Positions 7,221 to 23,507 of a DNA stretch of 64,000 nt are shown piece by piece. Source of the stretch: Labilibaculum euxinicum (lineage in GTDB: Bacteria; Bacteroidota; Bacteroidia; Bacteroidales; Marinifilaceae); the NCBI RefSeq assembly GCF_009795715.1, contig NZ_WTCR01000001.1, positions 434,001-498,000 of the forward strand. Reading direction: 5' to 3'. A program made the position numbers and the translations under genes. Numbering within the stretch: position 1 is the stretch's first letter; each line of letters opens with the position of its first letter. The notes under the pieces are model-generated. The model was given only the letters and a program-made list of their open reading frames with translations. It did not search any database and was not told where the DNA came from.

Positions 7221-7898
7221 TTAGGAATTCATCATATACCCTACTCCTCTTATGTTCCTGATTTTAAGAGAAGAATTATCTTTAAACAAATCTCTTAATT
7301 TCGATAAAATATTGTTTAAACTGGCACTGTTGTGCGTTTCCAAAGAATGATTCCATAGCTTTTCAGCCAACTGCTCTTTAGTTACTATTTCATTGGGATG
7401 CTCCATTAGTACTGCCAAAGCATTCTTCTCAAACGGACTCAGTTTCTTAATCAACTGCTTCTTATAAAAAAACTCATTTGTTCGCAAATTCAGCTGATAA
7501 TTAGCCAATTCTATTATCTGTGGCAAGCTTGTTTTTAAAGCAAAACGTTGAATGTAGGATACTAGTACAGGTATAGATAAAGGTTTTGGCAGATATGCGT
7601 TCCCCCCAATGCTTATTCCCTTGGTTATAAAATCATCTTCGGTATGCGAGGACACAAACAACAGAGGAATTTGCGGGTATTTTGCGATAATATCCTGAGC
7701 TTTATCCATTCCGTTCTCTTTACCTATTTCCACATCTAAAATAATAATATCCGGCATAAGAGTCTGTACAATCGAATCAATTCCCAGCAGTGTGTTTTGA
7801 AAATGCACTTTATAATTATAATCTGTCTCTAGTATGGTCGTAACAAAACTTCCTAAATTGAGATCATCATCCACAAATAATACTTTTAATTGTTCCAT
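7221..7898 (-). CDS. OmpR-type response regulator
   Basis: DNA-binding response regulator of 225 residues. The receiver domain has the acidic pocket Asp10-Asp12 (FVDDD), phospho-acceptor Asp55 (IIILDVEIG) and the conserved Lys in YLPKPLS. The C-terminal winged helix (about 130-225) has the NEIVTKEQLAEKLWNHS...ILSKLRDLF...IRNIRGVGYMM pattern of Trans_reg_C. The kinase gene ends 19 bases upstream, so the two form one leftward operon. The operon diverges from the GG-leader peptide locus; control of that locus is an inference from position only. Confidence 0.92.
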   Translation of the reverse strand: MEQLKVLFVDDDLNLGSFVTTILETDYNYKVHFQNTLLGIDSIVQTLMPDIIILDVEIGKENGMDKAQDIIAKYPQIPLLFVSSHTEDDFITKGISIGGNAYLPKPLSIPVLVSYIQRFALKTSLPQIIELANYQLNLRTNEFFYKKQLIKKLSPFEKNALAVLMEHPNEIVTKEQLAEKLWNHSLETHNSASLNNILSKLRDLFKDNSSLKIRNIRGVGYMMNS

Positions 7899-7917: not shown

Positions 7918-9300
7918 TTAAACAATAACTTTTTCAGGAAGAACAATCCAAAATGTACTGCCTTTTCCAAGCTTACTTTCTAATCTGATGCGCCCTTTGT
8001 GGGCTTTTACGATTTGTTGGGTAAAAGCCAAACCAATACCATGTCCTTTGCTGTTGTTATCTGCGCGGTAAAATTCCTGAAAAATTTTCCGTTGTTCTTT
8101 TTGAGGAATCCCTTTGCCCGAATCTGTAATACAGATGTGTAATTGTTTTTGTTCCCGAATGGCTTTAATTTCCAGTTTTGCAATTGCATCTGAATACTTA
8201 AAGGCATTATCCAACAAATTTCGCAAGGCTGCTTCGAAATAAAGTGGATCTACATAAATATCCAAATTTTCAGAAATGGACAACTTGCATTCAGCTTGTT
8301 TGTCTTGATAGACGACCTCAAATTCCAAGAATAAATCCCTGCACTTTTGCGCCAGATTGAATGGCGCAGCCTCCAATACAATTTTCTTTTTCTTCGCACG
8401 GAATAAGGTTAATAAAATCTCCATTTTGTGTGTCAATTTGGAGACATTACTACTTGCACTCCTGAGCTGTTGCTGTATGGCGGGCTGTTGTTCTTTGCTG
8501 GCCAGATAATCCAATAATGTATAGACATAAGATAAAGGGGTTTTTAAATCATGTACCATACCACTCACGGCTCGTTCACGCCACAACAGTTGCGCCACCT
8601 GTTTTTGCAACGCCCACAAAAGCCACAACATAAAAACAGCAACTAAAATAACAGCTAATGCTGATATGCCTATAGAATATACCATTTCCCGTAAAAAAGG
8701 AAAGGTTTTCAACTGAAAATCGGCGGTAAAAATATAGGTCTCTTTTGTGCCTAAGGGAATACGTACATGCAATGTGGAGGGTGAGTTTATACTTACTTTC
8801 CCCATCCATTTCCCCTGATGCAAACTATCAATGGACAAACCATTTTTCACGAGCTCCATACAATAAGCTCGTATCCTTCCGATTTCATGAAAATTATTTT
8901 GAAACAATGAGTCTACAATACATAGATGAAATTTTTCTTTCTCTAAACTTTTATCTGCAAATGAAGCTTCGATCAATTTTCCTAATGCAAAATCAGGCAT
9001 ATATTTTTTTGTGCTAATTTCAGATCTACCCAATTCAACCGAAGTATCTTTATCTGTTTCTTCATTTGCTGTTTCGTCCATTAAAACAGTAGCCATATCT
9101 GGTTTTGTAGGATTAGGAGTGCTGTATCCTTGTAAAGCATGAAAATTGATCATGCCTTGCAAGGTGCTTTCCAGCTTCGATGTAAACGTCTGTTTTTCCT
9201 GCTCCAATTGTCGCCATAGCCACAAAGCCTGCGAACCAATAAGCACTACAAGCACCAGTACTGCCATTATACTGAGTCGTTTGAACAATTTGCTTTTCAT
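7918..9300 (-). CDS. Membrane sensor histidine kinase
   Basis: Partner of the adjacent regulator. Residues about 9-29 are a membrane helix, about 30-205 a periplasmic sensing region without a domain I recognise, and about 208-230 a second helix. The HisKA box is MVHDLKTPL, followed by the ATP-binding domain with N (LRNLLDNAFKYS), G1 (ITDSGKGIP), F (FQEFYR) and G2 (GHGIGLAF) boxes. The periplasmic region carries a Thr/Glu/Asp-rich loop (TANEETDKDTSVE). The 460 residues are complete. No promoter box was recognised upstream; the 455-base divergent spacer is described separately. Confidence 0.9.
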   Translation of the reverse strand: MKSKLFKRLSIMAVLVLVVLIGSQALWLWRQLEQEKQTFTSKLESTLQGMINFHALQGYSTPNPTKPDMATVLMDETANEETDKDTSVELGRSEISTKKYMPDFALGKLIEASFADKSLEKEKFHLCIVDSLFQNNFHEIGRIRAYCMELVKNGLSIDSLHQGKWMGKVSINSPSTLHVRIPLGTKETYIFTADFQLKTFPFLREMVYSIGISALAVILVAVFMLWLLWALQKQVAQLLWRERAVSGMVHDLKTPLSYVYTLLDYLASKEQQPAIQQQLRSASSNVSKLTHKMEILLTLFRAKKKKIVLEAAPFNLAQKCRDLFLEFEVVYQDKQAECKLSISENLDIYVDPLYFEAALRNLLDNAFKYSDAIAKLEIKAIREQKQLHICITDSGKGIPQKEQRKIFQEFYRADNNSKGHGIGLAFTQQIVKAHKGRIRLESKLGKGSTFWIVLPEKVIV

Positions 9301-9755
9301 CTGTTAATGATTTTCTTGTTAAGGTCAGATGGAACTTATCCTATAATCATCTCCCTGCATGCAAAAAACTTTACACACGGACTTTTCACAAAATAAAGGT
9401 ATATTACTTTTCATAAGAAAATCATTATTTTATCATTAGAACAATTCTAAATTGTGTTTTCAATCAAAAAAATACATTTCCTTTCTAACCAAAGCAGACC
9501 TCTTTTCCAATCAAGTTGCTATAGGAATCTAATCAGATGATTAAACAAGAACCAACACTTGCTATTTGTAATTTTCATTGGATCTCCTGTCTCTCTTCAC
9601 TATTTTATTCAATGTCTATTTTGTTTAAAAACTTATCATTTCGACTTTTTTTTGATTAGAAAACCGCCTGTTATTTGATTAGCTTTCTAATTGCAAGCAG
9701 TTAGAAAGTTAATCGTTTTTTTAGATTTTATGTTCTAATTTTAAAAGAGTTCCAA
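9301..9755. other. Divergent regulatory spacer, kinase / peptide locus
   Basis: No gene is visible. The spacer is very AT-rich and holds the direct repeats and large hairpin described at 9651-9721, just in front of the first precursor gene. Short TTTCTAA strings recur (for example near 9482 and 9684). No TAnnTTTG box was found; TAATTTTA at 9736-9743 is the closest and lies only 12 bases before the ATG. Confidence 0.6.
9651..9721 (+). promoter_or_regulatory. Direct repeats plus hairpin before precursor 1
   Basis: TTTGATTAG occurs at 9651-9659 and 9674-9682, 23 bases apart, about two helical turns on one DNA face. The second copy runs into an inverted repeat: GATTAGCTTTCTAA (9677-9690) against TTAGAAAGTTAATC (9701-9714), 13 of 14 pairs, ten-base loop, followed by GTTTTTTT. 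It can be read as an operator pair for a response regulator, as an attenuator-type terminator, or as both; the sequence does not decide. Confidence 0.5.
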
Positions 9756-9917
9756 ATGAATACTTCACTTAAAAAAGTAAAAATCATGAAAACGAAAAAA
9801 GACAGCAAAGTAATGGAGGTATTAAACCGAAACAAATTAGGCCAAGTAAAAGGCGGAGAAGATAGAGATTACTACACAGTTATTATTGATGGAAAAGAGG
9901 TAAGAATATATGTGTAG
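9756..9917 (+). CDS. GG-leader precursor peptide 1
   Basis: 53-residue peptide, probably a substrate of the C39 exporter downstream. From the second Met (residue 11) the leader reads MKTKKDSKVMEVLNRNKLGQ then VKGG, a double-glycine leader of the L...LxxVKGG type with the Gly pair at 33-34. The remaining 19-residue core is EDRDYYTVIIDGKEVRIYV: no Cys, Ser or Trp, a single Thr, three Tyr, alternating charged and beta-branched residues. A core without Cys cannot carry thioethers; Tyr, Lys, Arg or Asp would be the candidate sites for a radical SAM enzyme. The ATG could be 9756 or 9786. It is the first gene of the locus and directly follows the hairpin at 9677-9721. Confidence 0.75.
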   Translation: MNTSLKKVKIMKTKKDSKVMEVLNRNKLGQVKGGEDRDYYTVIIDGKEVRIYV

Positions 9918-10018
9918 TAAAAAAGAATCTAACTAAACTGAGAAATTAACCCAATATAATATGACAATCTATTTTTTAGGAAAAAATAACTTAGGAAAGT
10001 AGCCGCCCCGGATTACGC

Positions 10019-10075
10019 ATGAATATAAATCCATCCTCTACCGGAGGTGGCTATAGTAGCCATAGCTACCTGTAA
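10019..10075 (+). pseudogene. Possible remnant of a third precursor peptide
   Basis: Between the two precursor genes a short frame reads MNINPSSTGGGYSSHSYL and stop. It is Gly, Ser and Tyr rich, like many GG-peptide cores. Just upstream in another frame, 9961-10002 encodes KNNLGK before a stop, resembling the NKLGQV of precursor 1's leader. A frameshift near 9995 would join them, but the joined peptide lacks the GG. The same DNA forms a hairpin (near-perfect inverted repeat about 10046-10070). Weak; it may be only a structured spacer. Confidence 0.25.
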
Positions 10076-10163
10076 GCAAGGACAAAGCTACTAGAAAGAG
10101 GTGAATTTTGCAATTGTGAAAGGAAGGATATTTAATACAATTAAACATACAAATAAAAATATC

Positions 10164-10334
10164 ATGAAAAAGCAAATTAACATTACCAACCCATTAACAA
10201 AAGAACAATTGAAAAACCTTAAAGGTGGAAAAAATATTTGGTCGAATACAAGTGAAGCGACACCAGGTCTTGAAGGCTGGAATACATGTTGTAATACAGG
10301 TACTACTCCTGTTGAACCAACAAAAAAGGACTAA
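10164..10334 (+). CDS. GG-leader precursor peptide 2
   Basis: 56-residue peptide with a clear double-glycine leader, MKKQINITNPLTKEQLKNLK then GG (residues 21-22). The 34-residue core is Thr/Asn rich, contains two Trp and an adjacent Cys pair at core positions 20-21 (GWNTCCNTGTT), and ends PTKKD. Adjacent Cys after Thr/Asn offers thiol chemistry absent from precursor 1. ATG 10164 is preferred over an in-frame GTG at 10101 because the leader then has the normal length. It lies 90 bases before the radical SAM gene, separated by a strong hairpin. Confidence 0.8.
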   Translation: MKKQINITNPLTKEQLKNLKGGKNIWSNTSEATPGLEGWNTCCNTGTTPVEPTKKD

Positions 10335-10354
10335 GTAAATATTAAGAAAATAAT

Positions 10355-10382
10355 AGGAGCATACCACTTTAGGTATGTTCCT
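10355..10382 (+). promoter_or_regulatory. Stem-loop between precursor 2 and the maturase gene
   Basis: AGGAGCATACC (10355-10365) pairs over all 11 positions (one G-U) with GGTATGTTCCT (10372-10382) around a six-base loop. There is no T-run, so it is not a classic terminator. In peptide loci, hairpins here commonly stabilise the precursor part of the message or partly block read-through; that role is inferred. Confidence 0.6.
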
Positions 10383-10424
10383 AGATTATGTTAGTGTGTT
10401 AATTAAAATTTCAGGAATCAAAAT

Positions 10425-11768
10425 ATGAATATCAATCCTAATACTCAATATACTTTATCCTCTAATTATTTATTAAGAGATGATTATGCTAATGGTAATA
10501 AAAGAGAAAAATTCACTCTTCACGATATAACTAAAGATGAGGTTACAACATTAAGTGAGTCGTTATATCGAATATTAAATATTCTAGAATATAACAAAAT
10601 TACGTTGAATGAATTAGAAGAGTATGTAACTGAGCATAATAATAAAATCAAAAAAGGAGAAATAATAGAGATTTTCAACGAAAAAAAATATTTTAGATTT
10701 CTATCGAATAAAGGCAATCCTAAAAAATATTACTCTCTTCCAGATTATCATCATGATTTACCAGTAAGAATATGTAATACTCCATCATTAGTTGAAATTC
10801 ACCCAACAAATGCATGCAATCTAAACTGTCCTCATTGCTACATGGAAAGTTCACCTCAAAGTGGTTTTGGCGATTCCCTACCATTAATTAAATGGAAAGA
10901 AATTATTGATGAAATAGAATATTTAAAAGTGCCCAATTTAAATATTTCCGGAGGAGAACCGTTAGTTTATCCTCACATGAAAGAATTGCTAAATTATCTT
11001 ACTAAAAAAAGAATAAGAACTACTCTTATCTCTAATGGTATGCTAATTGATGATGAGATTATTATGAGTCTATCTCATCCTCATATGTCTGTAAGTATAT
11101 CCTTGGATGGCATAACTGCAGAGACTCATGACCAAATAAGAGGTAAAGGGAGTTTTGACAGATTGATTCAAATTATTAACAAGCTAAAAAATAAAGTAAA
11201 TTTCAATTTATGCTTTACTATTTCTAAAGTAAATAAACATGAAACTGAAGGTTTTTTAAAATTCTGTATTCAAAATAATGCTACCGTTGCAAGTTTAATT
11301 ATGCTGTCAAATATTGGAAGGTGTAAGGAAAACCCTTTCCTCCATAATGATGATAAAGAATCAGATTTAATTAAAACTCAAAAACTTATTGATAAGTACG
11401 AGTCGTCTATTAGAATAAACTTTATATCTGGAGATCCAAAAGGTGAGAATGCGGGTAGTAATCCAGAATCTTGTGTTTCTTGTACTGGACTAACATCAAC
11501 ATTATTCATAAATGAAAAAGGAGATGTGTATCCATGTGTGGTAGCTTCAAAATCAACTTTTTTTAAGGTTGGTAACTTAAATCAAAATTCAATAGCAGAA
11601 ATGTGGCAAAAGCCAGATCATAATAGTCCTTTTAGAGGTAGTATTAAATATAAAGAATTAACTGAATGTATTGATTGTTCCTTTTATGAGACATGCTCTT
11701 TAAAAAACTGTAGAGCAAAAGCATTTATTCTGGAAGACAATATTTATGGTAAACCTTGCATGCTATAA
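10425..11768 (+). CDS. Radical SAM/SPASM peptide maturase
   Basis: Predicted iron-sulfur enzyme that uses S-adenosylmethionine radicals to modify a ribosomal peptide. The radical SAM cluster motif is Cys131-x3-Cys135-x2-Cys138 (CNLNCPHCYM), followed by SGGEPL and SISLDG. The C-terminal SPASM region has Cys350, 353, 371, 415, 418, 424, 429 and 445, enough for two auxiliary clusters. Residues 1 to about 100 precede the barrel and could be a RiPP recognition element (PqqD-like); I infer this from position and size. Gene order after two GG peptides supports a maturase role. The product chemistry (thioether, C-C or Tyr-based) cannot be read from sequence. Visibly more AT-rich than the housekeeping genes. 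Confidence 0.85.
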   Translation: MNINPNTQYTLSSNYLLRDDYANGNKREKFTLHDITKDEVTTLSESLYRILNILEYNKITLNELEEYVTEHNNKIKKGEIIEIFNEKKYFRFLSNKGNPKKYYSLPDYHHDLPVRICNTPSLVEIHPTNACNLNCPHCYMESSPQSGFGDSLPLIKWKEIIDEIEYLKVPNLNISGGEPLVYPHMKELLNYLTKKRIRTTLISNGMLIDDEIIMSLSHPHMSVSISLDGITAETHDQIRGKGSFDRLIQIINKLKNKVNFNLCFTISKVNKHETEGFLKFCIQNNATVASLIMLSNIGRCKENPFLHNDDKESDLIKTQKLIDKYESSIRINFISGDPKGENAGSNPESCVSCTGLTSTLFINEKGDVYPCVVASKSTFFKVGNLNQNSIAEMWQKPDHNSPFRGSIKYKELTECIDCSFYETCSLKNCRAKAFILEDNIYGKPCML

Positions 11769-11807
11769 AGAAACTATACTACTAATAGTCATTCAAATGC
11801 TACTTTT

Positions 11808-14222
11808 ATGAAATCTAATTTCATTTCAAAAATGGTCTTCTCTTGCTTCGGAAAGAAGACCATTTATACAAATAATTTAATCAAATACTGTGTCAGTATT
11901 TACATTGTATTCTCCGTCTCTTTCTTTAGCTCTGCGCAGAAAATTACAATTACTGGGAACTTAAATGATCAGACACATAACCCAATTGAGTATTTTCACG
12001 CAATGCTCCTCTCGTCAAATGATTCTATTCTAATTGTAGGAGGTGCATTTTTAGATGGTAATTTCGAATTGATTGCCCCTAATAAAGGAGATTACATTTT
12101 GTCATTTTCATGTTTGGGTTATCAATCAAGACATGAGAATATGAGTATTACACAAAATACAGATTTAGGAGAAATACGACTAAAACAAACAAATTTAAAT
12201 CTCAAGGAAGTAAACATTGCAGCGCGTAGGCCAAGTTTTAAGGAAAAACGGGGTAAGATAATAATGAATGTTGTAAACACTTCAATAAGTGATCTTGGAT
12301 CAACAATAGATGTGTTGGAAAGAGCACCCGGTGTGATAATTGATAACCAAAACAATATTTCGGTATTTGGTAAAGGTTCACCATTAATTTTTATTGATGA
12401 TAAAGAAGTCGTTGTAAACAATGAATTGGAAAGTATACAATCAGATGATATTGCAAGTATAGAAATTGATAGAAATCCTTCTGCCGTTTATAGTTCCAAT
12501 GCTCGTTCGGTTATCAGAATTAAAACGAAAAAAGCCAAAAGAGATCAATTAAACGTACAAGCCTACAATTATGCTACTTTCGCAAGAAAGTTTCAGAATT
12601 TTACTGGTGTTAAAGTAAATAATACAAAGGGGAAGTTGTCCAATTTTTTTCAATTTGCTTATGAAAACACGAAGCTTAAAACACCAACAGAGAATTTTCA
12701 ATACAACTATCAGCAAAATTACACCATTCAGAATAATTCTAATACCACTGAAAATTTAAAAAGAAATAGATATATTTTATTTCTCGGAAGTAAGTATTCA
12801 ATCAACACTAAGAATGAAATAAATTTTCAATACAGCTATAATGGATTATATGATGAAAATAATACACTTTCAGTTCAAAAAATCAATAAGACCAATGAAT
12901 TGGAAGATATACGTAGAATTACCAATCATACCAATGAAGATAGAGAACAGCACAATTCTAATATCAATTATAAGTTAGAAATTGATAGTATTTCATACTA
13001 TAGCTTATCTATGGATTTTGCAAGAATATCAGCTCCAAGCAAATCAAACATTCAAGAACTGAACCCGACACAAAACTCAGAATTACAATCGAAAATTCTT
13101 AATTCAAATACTTATCACGTTTATACCTTAAACAGTAGATACCAATATTCTTTGTTAAGTCAATTCAAATCAGCGGTAGGAATAAAACTGGCTCAAATAG
13201 AAAATAGTGGTAATACGGAATCAACTTATCTACCCAATAATGATATTTTCTACCAAGGGCGAAATGTAATTAAGGACAAAGTTCTTGCAGGTTATTTTAC
13301 TGTTAACAAACAATTAAGAAATGTAAATTTCGATGTAGGAATAAGATTAGAACATTCAATAACCAAAATTAAAAGCAATCGTGAAACTGTTGTTGACTGC
13401 AATTCAACAGATGTTTTCCCATCCTTACTGATTAATTATCAGATTGATAAAAACAAGCATATTACATTCAGTTATGCAAAAAAAAATAGCAGACCTTCTT
13501 TTTCTGAATTAAACCCTTCTTTGGATTATATAGATTCTCTTTCTTACGAACAAGGTAATCCGTTATTGAAGCCAACAATATATCACTCATTTGCACTAGA
13601 TTATTGTCCATTAAAAAAACTCTCTTTCTCTGCAGAATATACAAATCTAAAAAACACAATTTTATTTACAGGTATAAACGATCCGGTAAATCCAGATATC
13701 ATTAAACATACTGCCATTAATATAGACCGATCTGAAAAAATAAATTTCATGTCGAATTACAGTTATTCTGTTAATAATTACAGTTTTTTTATTAGTAATG
13801 GTGTTGAATTCCCCATAATCAATGCACCATACCTAAATTCAGAAATAAAGATTAGAAGAGCATCCTGGTATAGCCAGATAAAAAATGACATCTATTTAAA
13901 TAAAAACATACTTCTTTATTGCAAGTTTAAATATCAAAGTAAAACTAATTACGATTTGACAATAATGCGAAACAGATATAATTTATCATGTGGCATACAA
14001 ACAAAAATTTTACAAAAAAAACTGCTCATATCTCTATCAGCAAATGATATCCTCAATAATTATAATGCTGATTGGTATAACAAATATCAGAACATTAAAA
14101 GTGGACAACTTAGAGATCATGATACCTCCTACTTGAGACTATATATTCGTTATAATTTCAACAATTTTAAAAATGTTTTTAATAAAAAAAATATGAATAG
14201 TGAAGAATTGAATCGCTTATAG
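11808..14222 (+). CDS. Outer-membrane beta-barrel receptor (OMP_b-brl_3 type)
   Basis: 804-residue outer-membrane protein. A late signal segment (about residues 26-43, SIYIVFSVSFFSSAQ) is followed by a carboxypeptidase-regulatory-like domain (ITITGNLNDQTHNPIEYFHAMLL), a plug-like region with DVLERAPGVIIDNQNNISVFG and a long barrel rich in aromatic residues and Asn. It resembles TonB-dependent receptor-like proteins; I do not see a clear TonB box. It starts 39 bases after the maturase and is probably in the same transcript. Import of the modified peptide, export across the outer membrane, or self-sensing are all possible. Confidence 0.8.
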   Translation: MKSNFISKMVFSCFGKKTIYTNNLIKYCVSIYIVFSVSFFSSAQKITITGNLNDQTHNPIEYFHAMLLSSNDSILIVGGAFLDGNFELIAPNKGDYILSFSCLGYQSRHENMSITQNTDLGEIRLKQTNLNLKEVNIAARRPSFKEKRGKIIMNVVNTSISDLGSTIDVLERAPGVIIDNQNNISVFGKGSPLIFIDDKEVVVNNELESIQSDDIASIEIDRNPSAVYSSNARSVIRIKTKKAKRDQLNVQAYNYATFARKFQNFTGVKVNNTKGKLSNFFQFAYENTKLKTPTENFQYNYQQNYTIQNNSNTTENLKRNRYILFLGSKYSINTKNEINFQYSYNGLYDENNTLSVQKINKTNELEDIRRITNHTNEDREQHNSNINYKLEIDSISYYSLSMDFARISAPSKSNIQELNPTQNSELQSKILNSNTYHVYTLNSRYQYSLLSQFKSAVGIKLAQIENSGNTESTYLPNNDIFYQGRNVIKDKVLAGYFTVNKQLRNVNFDVGIRLEHSITKIKSNRETVVDCNSTDVFPSLLINYQIDKNKHITFSYAKKNSRPSFSELNPSLDYIDSLSYEQGNPLLKPTIYHSFALDYCPLKKLSFSAEYTNLKNTILFTGINDPVNPDIIKHTAINIDRSEKINFMSNYSYSVNNYSFFISNGVEFPIINAPYLNSEIKIRRASWYSQIKNDIYLNKNILLYCKFKYQSKTNYDLTIMRNRYNLSCGIQTKILQKKLLISLSANDILNNYNADWYNKYQNIKSGQLRDHDTSYLRLYIRYNFNNFKNVFNKKNMNSEELNRL

Positions 14223-14419
14223 AATGAATTCGTTGTGCTAATAAAGTTAGATATCTATTTCAATACATGAACCTAAAGTAAAAACATCCATAAAAACAAA
14301 ACACTTTTATGAAACTAAATAAGGCCCCTAGGAATAAGTAAGTCGATCTGAGGAATGGTTAACCCAACTCCAGTGTGATGATACCTTAATAAATTTAGTA
14401 ATAACAAAAAAAAAACACC

Positions 14420-14911
14420 ATGAGTACAATAAAAAACCTAATCAACATCCATTTAAGTGCAGAACGAGTAGAGAGTGTGAACACGGCTTTAGCAACTTTA
14501 GAAACAGCCTTGGCTACTAAGATGAGTAACCTTAGTGGAGATGAACGTCGCAAATATGGCAGTATAAGCGAGCAAAACAAACTGTTTGTAAATAAGGTAA
14601 ACAATTATGCCATGAATCAAACTGCATTGCGAAGTCCTGATGTTGATTGGGATGAGTTTGCCAAAGACTTTAATAGTCGTACTGTTTTGGAAGGAACCAT
14701 TTCACGTTTGCAAAATCTGCTCACAGGCATAAACAATGCGAAAACTCTGCACGACTACGACAACTACCAGGCCGCTTTAGACGATTATGCCTATACCAAT
14801 TACAAAACAGGAACATCTGCTCCGGGCTACGAGGCCAAACGCAATGAACTGAAACAATTCTTTAGCCGTATCAAAAAAGTTGATGAAAAGGAAACAGCGG
14901 ATAAGAAGTGA
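14420..14911 (+). CDS. Unknown helical 163-residue protein
   Basis: I do not recognise this family. The 163 residues contain no signal peptide or membrane helix. The composition suggests an all-alpha soluble protein: HLSAERVESVNTALATLETALATKMSN..., many Ala, Asn, Asp and Lys, ending in a charged tail (KKVDEKETADKK). It is flanked by 197 bases without a gene on the left and by its own terminator on the right, so it may be a separate transcript. Codon use and GC look more like the exporter than the AT-rich maturase. Position in the peptide locus makes immunity or regulation conceivable, without direct support. Confidence 0.6.
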   Translation: MSTIKNLINIHLSAERVESVNTALATLETALATKMSNLSGDERRKYGSISEQNKLFVNKVNNYAMNQTALRSPDVDWDEFAKDFNSRTVLEGTISRLQNLLTGINNAKTLHDYDNYQAALDDYAYTNYKTGTSAPGYEAKRNELKQFFSRIKKVDEKETADKK

Positions 14912-14935
14912 TACTTAGTTTAAGTGACACTGCTT

Positions 14936-14993
14936 AAAACCTGACTGGATTAATTTATATCTCGCAAATTTAACTTGTCAGGTTATTTTTTTA
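14936..14993 (+). terminator. Terminator after the 163-residue protein gene
   Basis: AACCTGAC (14938-14945) pairs with GTCAGGTT (14977-14984), followed by A and T7. The loop is long (31 bases). Confidence 0.6.
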
Positions 14994-15040
14994 TAGATGT
15001 CTGATCGTTTGTTTTTATACTAAATATGCTTTGCAACATA

Positions 15041-15380
15041 AAGACTTCGGTTCTGTATCGAAATACTTTGCTTCATAACCAAAGTATTCAGGTTAGCGAA
15101 GCTAAACCTTGGGCTTAGAAAGCGAAACCAAGAGGTTCTGTACCAAACAGAAGAGGTTAAAGAACCTGAAATTTCAGGTTTGTAACCCCTAACTTATATT
15201 CCTAAATCCCAACGGAAATATGGGGAACCGAAGGGGAAACATAAGGAACCGAAAAAGAATGGTAGGCATACGTAAAAAAATAGGTTCGCAAACCTAAAAG
15301 TTGGAGTCATAAACCAGAACGGAATAATCTGGAACGATAAATTAAGGACAAATAACCGAAACAGAATGGTAGAGAACCTC
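15041..15380 (+). repeat. Block of clustered small hairpins
   Basis: No gene is visible in 14994-15563. About 340 bases contain many short inverted repeats, often built on AGGTT/AACCT: AATACTTTG/CAAAGTATT (15062-15070 with 15080-15088), AGGTTAGC/GCTAAACCT (15090-15109), GGTTCT/AGAACC (15134-15166), CCTGAAATTTCAGG (15165-15178), TAGGTT-CGCA-AACCTA (15281-15296) and CCAGA/TCTGG (15314-15332). Words such as GGAACCGAA and AGAATGGTAG also recur directly. It could be an array of decayed palindromic repeats or a structured leader for the exporter gene. Confidence 0.5.
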
Positions 15381-15408
15381 AAACCCTAAGAAAATTATTA
15401 TGAAGCGT

Positions 15409-15542
15409 GAACACAGATCTAACAGATAAAAGATTCGTGAAAATTCGTGCCATCTGTGTTATTCGTGTTTCATAAAAAGGACACGGATGTAACGAATAAA
15501 ATAATCTTTGGAAATCCGTTTCATTCGTCCAATTCGTGTTCC
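15409..15542. repeat. GAACAC...GTGTTC repeats, copies A1 and A2
   Basis: Two units in tandem: A1 15409-15471 (GAACACAGATCTAAC...ATTCGTGTTTC) and A2 15479-15542 (GGACACGGATGTAAC...AATTCGTGTTCC). Each is quasi-palindromic, with internal AGATTCGTG/AATTCGTG-like words. The array ends 22 bases before the exporter ATG. Related copies at 17787, 18459 and 19071 bracket the following genes. Confidence 0.75.
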
Positions 15543-15563
15543 GTTCTAAAAAATGAGTAATCA

Positions 15564-17780
15564 ATGAAATATGCTTTCTACAAACAATTCGATGTCATGG
15601 ACTGCGGGCCAACCTGTGTACGGATGATTGCCAAATACTACGGCAGGCACTATTCACTGGAGCAACTTCGAAAAAAAAGTTTCGTTACCCGCGAAGGTGT
15701 TTCGATGCTAGGCATTAGCGATTGTGCCGAAAGTATAGGTTTTCATACTTTGGCAGGTCGTTTTACGTTCGATAAATTGGCAGAGCAAGCTCCCCTGCCC
15801 TGTATTGTTCATTGGCGACAAGATCATTTTGTGGTGGTATATGCTCTAAGGAAGAAAAAATCATTATTTAAAAAAACAGAAATTCAAATTATAGTTGCCG
15901 ATCCTGGTAAAGACATCATAAAATATAGTAAAGATGAGTTTCTGGAAAACTGGATTAGTACCAAAACCAATGGCGAAGATAAAGGAGTAGCCCTACTGTT
16001 AGAACCAACGCCCAGGTTTTATGAACAGGAAGGAGAGAAAAAAAACACAGGAAGTTTTGCTCTTCTTTTCTCCTATTTTGGACGTTACAAAAAGTATTTC
16101 ACCCAATTGCTTCTGGGTTTACTTTTGGGCAGTATATTGCAACTCATCTTTCCTTTTTTAACTCAGGCAATTGTAGATGTTGGTATATCCGACCAAAACC
16201 TTAGTTTCATCTATCTAATACTACTTGCACAACTAATTCTGTTCGTTAGTCGCATGTCGGTCGATTTTATACGCAGGTGGATTCTTTTGCACATCAGTAC
16301 ACGAATAAACGTTTCTCTTATTTCCGATTTCCTAATAAAATTGATGAAACTCCCCATGAGTTTTTTTGACACCAAACTAGTAGGTGATATCTTGCAGCGT
16401 ATTGAGGACCACCGGCGCATTGAACGTTTTCTAACAGCACAATCATTAGGTGTGATTTTCTCACTCTTCAATTTTATTATATTTGGTATTGTTCTGTTGA
16501 TTTACAGCCTTAAAATATTTTTAATATTCTTAGCAGGCAGTATCTTATATGTTTTATGGATTTTCATCTTTCTAAAGAAAAGACGTACTCTCGATTATCA
16601 GTTTTTTGAACAGCAAGCTTTAAATCAGAGCAAAACTTACCAGTTAATTAATGGGATGCAGGAGATCAAACTTCAAAACTGTGAAAAGCGGAAGCGCTGG
16701 GAATGGGAAGATGTGCAAGCCGATTTGTTTCATGTAAATATAGCATCTTTATCGCTTCAACAGTCACAGGAAGGCGGAACTGTATTTATCAACGAATTGA
16801 AAAACATTCTAATTACCATTGTAGCCGCCACAGCAGTTATCAATGGCTCCCTTACACTGGGAATGATGCTTGCCATACAATATATCATCGGACAATTGAA
16901 TAGTCCGTTAGAACAGATGGTCGGTTTTATTCACAACATGCAGGATGTGAAAATCAGTCTCGACCGTTTGTCCGAAATTCATCAAAAAGAGAATGAGGAT
17001 GAGAAAAACGAAACAAAATTTCAGAATTTCTCTCATGGAAACCGAAGCATCGAAATCGAAAATATGTGCTTTCAATATGAAGGTCCCCACTCGCCCAAAG
17101 TTCTAAACAATATCAATCTAACTATTCCAAAAGGCAAAGTAACAGCTATTGTTGGAGCCAGCGGAAGTGGCAAAACCACATTGGTAAAATTATTACTGGG
17201 ATATTATCTGCCCACAAATGGCCATATAAAGATAGATCAGCATCAGCTTTCTGAATATGATTTGCGGTGGTGGAGAAACCAGTGTGGAGCTGTAATGCAG
17301 GATGGATTTATCTTTTCAGAATCAATAGCCAAAAATATAGCTGTATCGGACGAAGAAATAGATAAGGAGAAATTATTGCATGCGGCTAAAGTTGCCAATA
17401 GCCACAACTTTATCAGCGAATTGCCCTTAGCATACAACACCATTATAGGACAAGAGGGACAAGGTGTTAGTCAGGGGCAAAGACAGCGCATATTAATAGC
17501 GAGAGCTGTGTACAAAAATCCTGATTTTCTCTTTCTGGATGAAGCAACGAATGCCTTGGATGCCAACAACGAAAAAGAAATCAGCAGAAATTTGGATCGC
17601 TTTGTGGCAGGAAAAACTGTAGTTATCGTTGCTCATCGCTTAAGTACTGTTAAAAATGCAGATCAAATAATTGTTTTAGATAAAGGGGAAATCGTAGAAA
17701 AAGGAACCCATACTGATTTGACCAGAAATAAAGATCATTATTATGAATTGGTGAAAAATCAACTTGAGTTGGGTAATTAA
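15564..17780 (+). CDS. C39-peptidase bacteriocin-type ABC exporter
   Basis: 738-residue peptidase-containing ABC transporter: cuts a double-glycine leader and exports the released peptide across the inner membrane. The C39 domain (about 1-135) has Gln8, Cys14 (MDCGPTC), His88 (RQDHFVVV) and Asp113 (VADPGKD) in the expected order. The membrane domain spans about 160-450. The ATPase has Walker A GASGSGKTT, signature VSQGQRQRI (Gln for the usual Gly) and Walker B FLFLDEATNALD. Precursors 1 and 2 with GG leaders are obvious substrates. Repeats stop just before its start and resume six bases after its stop. Confidence 0.93.
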   Translation: MKYAFYKQFDVMDCGPTCVRMIAKYYGRHYSLEQLRKKSFVTREGVSMLGISDCAESIGFHTLAGRFTFDKLAEQAPLPCIVHWRQDHFVVVYALRKKKSLFKKTEIQIIVADPGKDIIKYSKDEFLENWISTKTNGEDKGVALLLEPTPRFYEQEGEKKNTGSFALLFSYFGRYKKYFTQLLLGLLLGSILQLIFPFLTQAIVDVGISDQNLSFIYLILLAQLILFVSRMSVDFIRRWILLHISTRINVSLISDFLIKLMKLPMSFFDTKLVGDILQRIEDHRRIERFLTAQSLGVIFSLFNFIIFGIVLLIYSLKIFLIFLAGSILYVLWIFIFLKKRRTLDYQFFEQQALNQSKTYQLINGMQEIKLQNCEKRKRWEWEDVQADLFHVNIASLSLQQSQEGGTVFINELKNILITIVAATAVINGSLTLGMMLAIQYIIGQLNSPLEQMVGFIHNMQDVKISLDRLSEIHQKENEDEKNETKFQNFSHGNRSIEIENMCFQYEGPHSPKVLNNINLTIPKGKVTAIVGASGSGKTTLVKLLLGYYLPTNGHIKIDQHQLSEYDLRWWRNQCGAVMQDGFIFSESIAKNIAVSDEEIDKEKLLHAAKVANSHNFISELPLAYNTIIGQEGQGVSQGQRQRILIARAVYKNPDFLFLDEATNALDANNEKEISRNLDRFVAGKTVVIVAHRLSTVKNADQIIVLDKGEIVEKGTHTDLTRNKDHYYELVKNQLELGN

Positions 17781-17786
17781 GCGAGG

Positions 17787-18048
17787 GAACACAAATTTGA
17801 CGAATTTAACGGATAAACACCGATAAAGAAATTCGTGATAATTCGTATTGGCTGTGTAATTTGTGTTCTAATAAAAAGATTTGTGGAAATCGATGTGATT
17901 CGCGCTTCAATAAAAGAGAACACAGATCTAACGAATTTTACAGATGAACACGGATAAAAAGATTCGTGTTAATTCGTATTGTCTGTGTAATTTGTGTTCT
18001 AATAAAAAGATTTGTAGAAACCTGTTTAATCAATATTGTTAGTGCTCC
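17787..18048. repeat. GAACAC...GTGTTC repeats, copies B1 and B2
   Basis: Two near-identical tandem units of about 131 bases: B1 from 17787 and B2 from 17918. Each has a core GAACACA...GTGTTC (17787-17868 and 17918-17999) and a trailing segment starting TAATAAAAAGATTTGT. The cores share AACGAATTTAAC/ACGAATTTTAC, GATTCGTG and TCTGTGTAATTTGTGTTC words with copies A, C and D. No coding frame crosses them. They fill the gap between the exporter and the GxxExxY gene. Confidence 0.75.
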
Positions 18049-18068
18049 ATCATTTTTATCTTTAATCT

Positions 18069-18458
18069 ATGCTCGAAAAAGAAATAACAAACAAAATCAT
18101 CAAAGCCTACTATAAAGTGTACAACACATTAGGTTATGGATTTCTTGAAAAGGTTTATGAAAACGCAATGTGTTTAGAATTACACAAACAGGCTTTGTTT
18201 TGTAAGCAACAAGAACGAATTAAAGTGTTTTACGATGGCAAACAAGTTGGAGAATACTTTGCAGATATTATTGTAGAAAACAGAGTTATTATAGAATTAA
18301 AAGCTGCTGAAAATTTATGTTATGACCATGAATGCCAATTGATCAATTATCTAAAAGCAACCAATATTGAAGTAGGCTTACTACTCAACTTTGGAAAAGA
18401 ACCACAATTCAGAAGAAAAATATTTACCAACGACCGAAAAACAATAGGGCAAGAATAG
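18069..18458 (+). CDS. GxxExxY protein (PDDEXK-like)
   Basis: 129-residue protein named for the motif Gly24-x2-Glu27-x2-Tyr30 (GYGFLEKVY). Members are assigned to the PDDEXK nuclease-like superfamily; here EYFADIIVENRVIIELKA gives the Asp...ExK pattern at about residues 80-97. Biological function is not established. The gene lies between repeat copies B2 and C, 20 bases after one and directly before the other, inside what should be an export operon (exporter and adaptor). This placement suggests a mobile cassette carrying the gene with its repeats, rather than a part of the peptide pathway. Confidence 0.85.
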   Translation: MLEKEITNKIIKAYYKVYNTLGYGFLEKVYENAMCLELHKQALFCKQQERIKVFYDGKQVGEYFADIIVENRVIIELKAAENLCYDHECQLINYLKATNIEVGLLLNFGKEPQFRRKIFTNDRKTIGQE

Positions 18459-18530
18459 TACGAATTTATTACCTAAAAATCAATTAAAAAATTCGTGGAA
18501 ATCTGTTTAATCAGTGCTATTCGTGTTCCA
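18459..18530. repeat. GAACAC...GTGTTC repeat, copy C
   Basis: Right-hand half of a unit: AAATTCGTGGAAATCTGTTTAATCAGTGCTATTCGTGTTC-like sequence ending with GTGTTC at 18523-18528. It begins at the GxxExxY stop codon and ends 15 bases before the adaptor ATG. The matching left arm (GAACAC...) is the B2 copy on the far side of the GxxExxY gene. Confidence 0.65.
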
Positions 18531-18545
18531 TTAAAAGTGAAAGAT

Positions 18546-19079
18546 ATGGCAGAGCAAAAAGATAATATAGAACTAAGGAGTGAAAAGGTAAGAAATATCA
18601 TAGGGCAAATCCCTTCACGGATAATTCGGAGTGGAATAACCACATTATTTATAGTTGTAATGATTCTTTTGACTGGCAGCTACTTTTTTCGTTACCCGGA
18701 TACTCTAAAAGGGGCTGCGCATTTGCACTCCGATTCAAGCTCTCTCTATTTCGCAAATATCAACTTGCCCTATCATTTTATTGGAAAGATAAAATCAGGA
18801 CAAAAAGTAAATATTGAACTGGAAGGTTATCCTGCAAATAATTTTGGTTTGCTAAAAGGAGAAGTCTCTCAGGTATTCCCTACCCCATTAGAAACGAATG
18901 AAAAAAGCTATTTTATTGTAAAAGCAACATTAATCAATGGAATGAAAAGCACTCAAAACAAATGCATTCCATTTTATCCAAACCTGAAAGGGAATGCAAA
19001 AATAACAATTGGAGAACACAGATTGCTTGAAAAATTACTCTCTCCGATTGTCAGTGTTTTTAAATCAAAAGAACGCTGA
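18546..19079 (+). CDS. Very short HlyD-like export adaptor
   Basis: 177 residues beginning MAEQKDNIELRSEKVRNIIG, a start typical of Bacteroidota HlyD-type adaptors of peptide exporters, then a membrane helix (about 27-47) and FRYPDTLKG. The usual lipoyl and long alpha-hairpin part (about 200 residues) is absent; the sequence goes straight to the C-terminal beta-barrel-like part (HFIGKIKSGQKVNIELEGYP...FGLLKGEV...GNAKITIGEHRLLEKLLSPI). It is either an internal-deletion product or a reduced adaptor unable to reach TolC. The start is ATG 18546, because the in-frame upstream codons belong to repeat copy C. The last codons run into repeat copy D. Confidence 0.7.
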   Translation: MAEQKDNIELRSEKVRNIIGQIPSRIIRSGITTLFIVVMILLTGSYFFRYPDTLKGAAHLHSDSSSLYFANINLPYHFIGKIKSGQKVNIELEGYPANNFGLLKGEVSQVFPTPLETNEKSYFIVKATLINGMKSTQNKCIPFYPNLKGNAKITIGEHRLLEKLLSPIVSVFKSKER

Positions 19080-19130
19080 TGACACAGATATACTAAGCAA
19101 ATCTGTAAAAATCCGTATTATTTCGTGTTC
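19071..19130. repeat. GAACAC...GTGTTC repeat, copy D
   Basis: Begins GAACGCTGATGACACAGAT, ends ATTTCGTGTTC at 19130. It overlaps the last nine bases of the adaptor gene (GAA CGC TGA), so the repeat supplies the stop codon, and it ends five bases from the 3' end of the convergent glycosyltransferase gene. Confidence 0.6.
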
Positions 19131-22891: not shown

Positions 22892-22965
22892 GCCGATATA
22901 GCTCAGTTGGTCAGAGCAGCTGATTTGTAATCAGCAGGTCGCGGGTTCGAATCCCCCTATCGGCT
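22892..22965 (+). tRNA. tRNA-Thr (anticodon TGT), copy 1
   Basis: 74-base cloverleaf: acceptor GCCGATA/TATCGGC, anticodon arm GCTGA-TTTGTAA-TCAGC with TGT, T loop GTTCGAATC. The next three bases happen to be CCA. Confidence 0.95.
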
Positions 22966-22978
22966 CCAATAAAATTAA

Positions 22979-23010
22979 AAGAAAGCTTGCGGGCTTTCTT
23001 TCGTTCTTTA
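22979..23010 (+). terminator. Hairpin after tRNA-Thr copy 1
   Basis: GAAAGC (22981-22986) pairs with GCTTTC (22993-22998), then TTTCGTTCTTT. Possible terminator or tRNA-processing spacer; a weaker version recurs at 23256-23275. Confidence 0.4.
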
Positions 23011-23056
23011 CAAGATTATTTGAAGAGTCGTTTAGCCTTCAAAAAAGTAACAAAAC

Positions 23057-23130
23057 GCCGATGTAGCTCAGTTGGTCAGAGCAGCTGATTTGTAATCAGC
23101 AGGTCGTGGGTTCGAATCCCTCCATCGGCT
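23057..23130 (+). tRNA. tRNA-Thr (anticodon TGT), copy 2
   Basis: 74-base cloverleaf with acceptor GCCGATG/CATCGGC and the same TGT anticodon arm as copy 1. Its sequence is identical to copy 3 at 23331. Confidence 0.95.
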
Positions 23131-23167
23131 CAATTTAAGGAAGATGATCTCCTTTTATTTTGTTACT

Positions 23168-23239
23168 GCCGTTGTAGCTCAGGGGTAGAGCGCTTCCTTG
23201 GTAAGGAAGAGGTCATGAGTTCAATTCTCATCAATGGCT
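23168..23239 (+). tRNA. tRNA-Thr (anticodon GGT)
   Basis: 72-base cloverleaf, acceptor GCCGTTG/CAATGGC (one G-T pair), anticodon arm CTTCC-TTGGTAA-GGAAG with GGT, T loop GTTCAATTC. Lies between two identical TGT copies. Confidence 0.93.
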
Positions 23240-23330
23240 CAATTAAAACTATAAAGAAAGCTTCCGGGCTTGTTTTCGTTCTTTACAAGATTATTTGAAG
23301 GATCGTTTTACCTTCTAAAAATAACAAAAC

Positions 23331-23404
23331 GCCGATGTAGCTCAGTTGGTCAGAGCAGCTGATTTGTAATCAGCAGGTCGTGGGTTCGAATCCCTCCATC
23401 GGCT
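23331..23404 (+). tRNA. tRNA-Thr (anticodon TGT), copy 3
   Basis: Identical in sequence to copy 2. Its 75-base leader also closely matches copy 2's leader, showing that a spacer-plus-tRNA unit (about 150 bases: 22980-23130 and 23255-23404) was duplicated. Confidence 0.95.
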
Positions 23405-23507
23405 CTTTTTTTACCCCCACCAACTTCATGTTTTTCGAATCTCTATGATGCGAAAATAGTTTCGCGTCTATATGTTTTATTTCTTGAGTTCAAAACATAT
23501 GCTATTC

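Follow-up and report, generated by a model that had tools for sequence, protein, structure and literature searches.

Two small genes with GG leaders lie side by side in the window (the whole 64,000-nucleotide stretch of DNA analysed here, from the source genome of a marine bacterium, 39 contigs and 5.06 Mb in size), with a sensor kinase and response regulator on one side and a single radical SAM (rSAM) enzyme on the other. This raises the question of which partner each peptide serves. The earlier note had described a peptide natural-product locus in which one maturase handles two unlike precursors beside a kinase/regulator pair. All the genes it named were confirmed in place, with corrected starts for the two peptide genes, PRE1 and PRE2, and a natural-product locus with one rSAM is supported. 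The division of labour that we favour, with modest confidence, is nevertheless another one. The locus may represent an undescribed GG-peptide three-component signalling unit of Gram-negative bacteria that drives exchangeable peptide cassettes, the signalling itself being deduced from sequence.

PRE1 and the divergent kinase/regulator pair

The response regulator (RR; 7221–7898) and sensor histidine kinase (HK; 7918–9300) are encoded on the reverse strand. The regulator combines a receiver with an OmpR/PhoB-type DNA-binding domain (Pfam Response_reg 59.3 and Trans_reg_C 50.4 bits), and the kinase is of HisKA/HATPase type (HATPase_c 87.2 bits) with two membrane segments predicted by hydrophobicity, from residues 10 and 210, and an extracytoplasmic domain in between. 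PRE1 (9786–9917, forward strand) most likely starts at ATG 9786 rather than 9756, because its homologues start at MKT and the upstream ATG in G007 runs into a stop. It encodes a GG leader and a 19-residue core without cysteine, EDRDYYTVIIDGKEVRIYV, the proposed kinase signal. Purifying selection on PRE1 (pN/pS about 0.3 for five Labilibaculum copies and 0.42–0.48 for ten family copies), together with its presence in 11 of 56 family genomes, makes it more than a chance frame. That count comes from a profile of five PRE1 peptides at E below 1e-9; weaker matches in 16 more genomes (E 0.007–0.5) were excluded as leader-only or long frames. A kinase profile (E ≤ 1e-70) matches exactly the same 11 genomes and no others, and in all of them PRE1 is upstream of and divergent from the kinase across a gap of 355–508 bp. 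The pair is thus not a mere neighbour, as first supposed, since PRE1 tracks it, and as judged from gene order and co-occurrence PRE1 belongs to the divergent kinase/regulator pair. Relatives named below include Labilibaculum manganireducens (G005), L. filiforme (G003), Labilibaculum sp. K2S (G002), Ancylomarina sp. DW003 (G045) and a Marinifilaceae MAG (G049).

The linkage extends to more distant relatives of the regulator. The narrow PRE1 profile has no match at E ≤ 1e-4 outside the source genome in 393 genomes of the order, where the family is sparsely sampled. A scan of named genomes with an RR alignment, which listed at least 593 stretches and used the best 80 of 164 relatives, gave 14 relatives of at least 34% identity among the matches listed, and 13 were scored after exclusion of L073, whose kinase lies off the contig. 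By one fixed rule, 11 of these 13 among the matches listed have a short GG-peptide gene that diverges from the kinase, and the carriers include Marinifilum breve, a Bacteroidia MAG, Massilibacteroides, Bacteroides timonensis, B. fluxus and Phocaeicola faecalis. The exceptions among these matches are L066 (Ancylomarina sp. 16SWW S1-10-2), which has a possible leader remnant, and L071 (Phocaeicola massiliensis). Such a peptide was found in none of the 24 controls with the kinase upstream of the regulator (66 controls in total) and beside none of 26 other kinases of the source genome, one of which has a GG-containing ORF, but on the kinase strand. The own-genome controls were 34 of 91 HATPase_c matches picked by eye (open frames of 351–736 codons, E ≤ 2.2e-14; C11:498673 excluded for a stop), reduced to 26 as eight had no recognised kinase ORF.

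A profile built from 13 kinase-linked peptides, with kinase information unused, offers a partly independent check of the linkage from the peptide side. It matches 15 of the 393 order genomes at E ≤ 0.01, source genome included. When leader-only matches and frames of more than 100 codons are excluded, matches covering the core occur in the source genome, G070, G169, G057 (three tandem copies) and G283 (two copies), and each of the latter four has an HK/RR pair adjoining and divergent from a copy. G070 is no independent test because it is itself a row in the profile; among the non-profile genomes G169 and G283 had already been met in an earlier kinase search and G057 is new. As that earlier search scored four candidates per genome, its misses carry no weight. 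The kinase-adjacent copy of G283 has an in-frame stop, and the intact copy lies about 6.6 kb farther.

Copy number and integrity vary among the relatives. Additional PRE1 copies distant from the kinase are present in G049 (L055:13367–13480, broken), G002 (L057:9487–9594) and G283 (L171:9074–9304). In G014 a frame-broken PRE1 adjoins a regulator split into two frames (L023:11858–12548), which may reflect decay or assembly errors. G057 carries three tandem, near-identical, hairpin-like GG peptides divergent from its HK/RR pair (L168:10260–10797), and neither a C39 exporter nor an rSAM was recognised within 20 kb around them.

The spacer between kinase and PRE1 contains a candidate operator (9654–9715). 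Seven aligned HK–PRE1 spacers conserve GATTAGAAA repeats near PRE1, spaced by approximately 23 bp, with an inverted pair after them; in several spacers there is also a mirrored set close to the kinase. Counted in both directions over at most the last 250 bases of each spacer, GATTA[GT] occurs at 44 sites in 20 spacers versus 7.4 ± 2.6 (maximum 18) in 300 dinucleotide shuffles, with related spacers counted separately. The exact GATTAG or CTAATC word is present in 14 of the 20 and missing in G054, L069, L070, L072, G070 and G169. The exact spaced GATTAG pair occurs once genome-wide, at PRE1. We infer that the regulator binds these repeats.

PRE2, its radical SAM/SPASM enzyme and the exchangeable cassettes

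Downstream of PRE1, PRE2 (10164–10334, forward strand, as are all genes that follow) encodes a GG-leader precursor with a Cys-Cys core. Its start is placed at ATG 10164 and not GTG 10101, because the 22-residue leader so defined is identical in Ancylomarina G045. PRE2 and this rSAM (10425–11768; Pfam Radical_SAM 92.0 and SPASM 48.0 bits) were found together only in the window and G045, adjoining in both. Between the two genomes the rSAM is 54% identical and the PRE2 leader is identical at 22 of 22 positions while the PRE2 core has diverged, a pattern that fits the expectation for a RiPP precursor with a leader-reading enzyme. The PRE1 peptides are 63% identical, and the PRE1 and PRE2 leaders are unlike. 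A stem-loop between PRE2 and the rSAM (10354–10383), perhaps a partial terminator, has a counterpart of altered sequence at the equivalent position in G045, where a T run follows it.

Radical SAM and SPASM domains next to a precursor, as in rSAM/SPASM RiPP maturases, are present here, and PRE2 is the proposed substrate. The CxxxCxxC motif reported earlier is confirmed (C131xxxC135xxC138); the eight further cysteines become twelve, of which eight lie in the SPASM part (350, 353, 371, 415, 418, 424, 429 and 445). For each of the 25 best-scoring of 82 NCBIfam families, the enzyme stays below the curated cut-off (top score 130.7 bits against 500), so the claim of a new precursor–maturase pair stands. 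Its predicted model (mean pLDDT 63.2) matches SuiB and SkfB, and the N-terminal part, strands followed by helices at low pLDDT, suggests with low confidence a PqqD-like domain, a candidate leader-binding (RRE) domain. A thioether at the PRE2 Cys pair would be a guess.

Next to the rSAM are genes for an OMP_b-brl_3 outer-membrane barrel protein (11808–14222; 183.2 bits), a 163-residue protein over no Pfam or NCBIfam cut-off (14420–14911), a C39 peptidase ABC exporter (15564–17780; Peptidase_C39 106.9 and ABC_tran 115.5 bits) and a short HlyD-like adaptor (18495–19079). Radical_SAM, SPASM, OMP_b-brl_3 and Peptidase_C39 all score above their Pfam cut-offs. The adaptor was rightly called reduced: it has 194 codons from GTG 18495, or perhaps starts at ATG 18546, and scores under HlyD cut-offs (TIGR01843 47.8 bits, cut-off 208.65), and comparable short proteins recur among relatives. 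Between exporter and adaptor is a GxxExxY (PDDEXK_3) gene absent from the earlier description (18069–18458; TIGR04256 136.7 bits, cut-off 35), probably a passenger. Imperfect ATTCGTG, CACGGAT and ACACAGAT-type repeats are dense in the spacers near these last three genes (about 15400–15545, 17785–18010, 18460–18530 and 19080–19130). Bins 15000 and 17500 contain 13 of the 30 words of this kind counted in the 64 kb, and the repeats are perhaps connected with the GxxExxY gene. Further downstream (22892–23405) are four consecutive tRNA-Thr genes, three with anticodon TGT.

What follows PRE1 differs between genomes. In G003, G049, G005, G002 and G016 it is succeeded by different GG precursors and different rSAMs. 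In G026 the 163-residue gene is followed by SagD (268.8 bits, cut-off 219.25), SagB (139.5, cut-off 78.4) and a SagC-like protein (TIGR03882 47.0, over 36.9; SagC model 50.4, under 187.65). L067 (6654–8261) and L068 (2395–3954) encode C39–VKOR–thioredoxin fusions next to GG peptides as well as the kinase-linked peptide, which suggests disulfide-bonded products. No rSAM was found by tblastn, profile or Pfam searches at the PRE1 loci of G007, G026, G014, L067, G070 and G057, the Pfam recheck covering larger cassette-side ORFs that had no clear match. It was added because the other searches missed rSAMs of L171 and L072 that Pfam shows. L059, L068 and L170, where no rSAM was found either, are kept out of the six because their cassette-side DNA is short (about 7.0, 4.1 and 1.1 kb). 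No product precursor was recognised at the G070 locus. The earlier note had named a precursor occurring without the rSAM as evidence against its pairing, and this is what the six loci present for PRE1. The 163-residue gene, whose co-occurrence in relatives it had asked about, does recur, at 6 of 11 family loci and as a gene family in 18 of 59 relatives searched; it is not bound to an rSAM, because it directly follows PRE1 in rSAM-free G026 and G014.

The window is itself a mosaic. Its miaA, RR, HK, adaptor and glycosyltransferase genes are closest to G007 (88–99%), and PRE1, the 163-residue gene, the exporter and the GxxExxY gene are closest to G003 (94–99%), which fits exchange by recombination.

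A proposed signalling mechanism and its rivals

Our proposal separates a conserved control unit, formed by kinase, regulator and the divergent PRE1, from an exchangeable product cassette, here PRE2, the rSAM/SPASM enzyme and the barrel protein. The genome provides both a GG leader and a C39 exporter, the combination known from C39-processed GG peptides, so that the PRE1 leader may be cut and the core exported. The extracytoplasmic domain of the kinase would then sense the 19-residue core and the regulator would act on the GATTAG repeats between kinase and PRE1, resulting in autoinduction and the switching on of genes downstream of PRE1. The rSAM/SPASM enzyme would read the PRE2 leader and modify its Cys-Cys core, giving a product with a putative antagonistic role.

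The core that would be sensed has a recognisable form. In a hairpin group of 13 it follows E-x-R-x-Y-I-x-V-I-I-D-G-K-x-V-R-I-Y-V, which looks like a β-hairpin with two short alternating strands flanking an Asp/Asn-Gly turn; those of Bacteroides and Phocaeicola are rich in Trp and less similar. Across 19 loci, core distance tracks sensor distance given kinase-domain distance (partial r 0.43, equalled or exceeded in 1 of 2000 permutations), and leader distance does not (partial r −0.005), although the partial Mantel test is a liberal one and the loci include close relatives, which are not independent.

Conservation of the core counts against a signal, being unlike what is seen in hypervariable pheromones: the cores of the window and L. 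filiforme G003 are identical though the sensors are 77% identical. It would instead suit a secreted effector, for example an unmodified bacteriocin, with a kinase that senses envelope stress or competitors and regulates both PRE1 and cassette, and the tandem copies of G057 and additional copies of G049, G002 and G283 likewise recall effector arrays. Against this, PRE1 is always the kinase-proximal gene while cassettes vary, and its core co-varies with the sensor; we consider this explanation unlikely. Tight linkage to the kinase, and the lack of any C39 gene seen near the G057 peptides, would also be compatible with a PRE1 that is not exported and serves as a small intracellular regulator of the kinase or the response regulator. 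This is improbable given that K-G-G is invariant across 17 aligned PRE1-type members and that C39 exporters are present in 11 of 11 PRE1-carrying family genomes. That the single rSAM modifies both peptides, as first proposed from two adjacent GG peptides and in keeping with their co-occurrence with it in the window and G045, is very improbable when PRE1 is retained in at least six loci without an rSAM, when the two leaders are unlike, and when the PRE2 leader is 22/22 identical between the two rSAM loci but the PRE1 peptide 63%.

With the signalling unit preferred, a broader proposal may tentatively be added, to which we give slightly less than an even chance. PRE1 would found a family of hairpin-like peptide pheromones, so far undescribed, in which every kinase/regulator pair of these Bacteroidales has a GG signal of its own. 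The unit would act as a portable, autoinducing control socket, and recombination would exchange cassettes of rSAM, SagBCD or disulfide type in it, also in Bacteroides and Phocaeicola of the human gut. If the signalling proposal is right, silent peptide clusters of marine and gut Bacteroidales could be activated with a short synthetic peptide. It would also be a warning that genome mining may take a signal peptide of this sort for an additional precursor.

Comparison with known systems

On the product side, the rSAM is 18–26% identical to the rSAM/SPASM RiPP maturases SuiB and SkfB, a match from which the linkage chemistry is not readable. PRE2 shares a CFB-type GG leader with the TIGR04148/TIGR04149 rSAM RiPP family, but its match is weak (16.2 bits to TIGR04149, under the cut-off of 25), and TIGR04148 (cut-off 300 bits) is outside the 25 best of 82 families for the rSAM, the last of which scores 70.5 bits.

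The Bacteroidales GG/PCAT/rSAM clusters of Fernandez-Cantos et al. 2023 have in common with this locus GG precursors, C39 exporters, rSAM or YcaO enzymes and barrel and adaptor genes (PMC10352776). In the portions of that paper available to us, an HK/RR pair accompanies one of nine clusters and the authors raise the possibility that certain precursors encoded close to signalling proteins act as signals; those portions describe neither a dedicated short kinase-linked peptide across clusters nor the swapping of adjoining cassettes (PMC10352776). A kinase-linked GG signal peptide in Bacteroidota was not found in the open-licence literature as partly accessible, a body poor in subscription journals and preprints.

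That peptide pheromones control bacteriocin genes in Gram-positive bacteria is textbook knowledge. HPK10 kinases have many membrane segments, and the regulators of the streptococcal systems are of LytTR type. Streptococcal ComD/BlpH-type kinases are HPK10 and, in the sections available, ComCDE and BlpC/BlpRH likewise place a small GG-leader gene by a kinase and regulator, with bacteriocin-type genes linked (PMC9638458). The same arrangement of GG-peptide gene, kinase and regulator is found here in 11 of 11 family genomes and in 11 of 13 relatives among the matches listed. The kinase, with two predicted membrane segments and HisKA/HATPase domains, is not of the many-segment HPK10 type, the regulator is OmpR/PhoB-type (Trans_reg_C 50.4 bits) rather than LytTR-type, and the host is a Gram-negative member of the Bacteroidales. 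The locus would thus work like a GG-peptide pheromone system that departs from the streptococcal kind in the type of both its kinase and its regulator.
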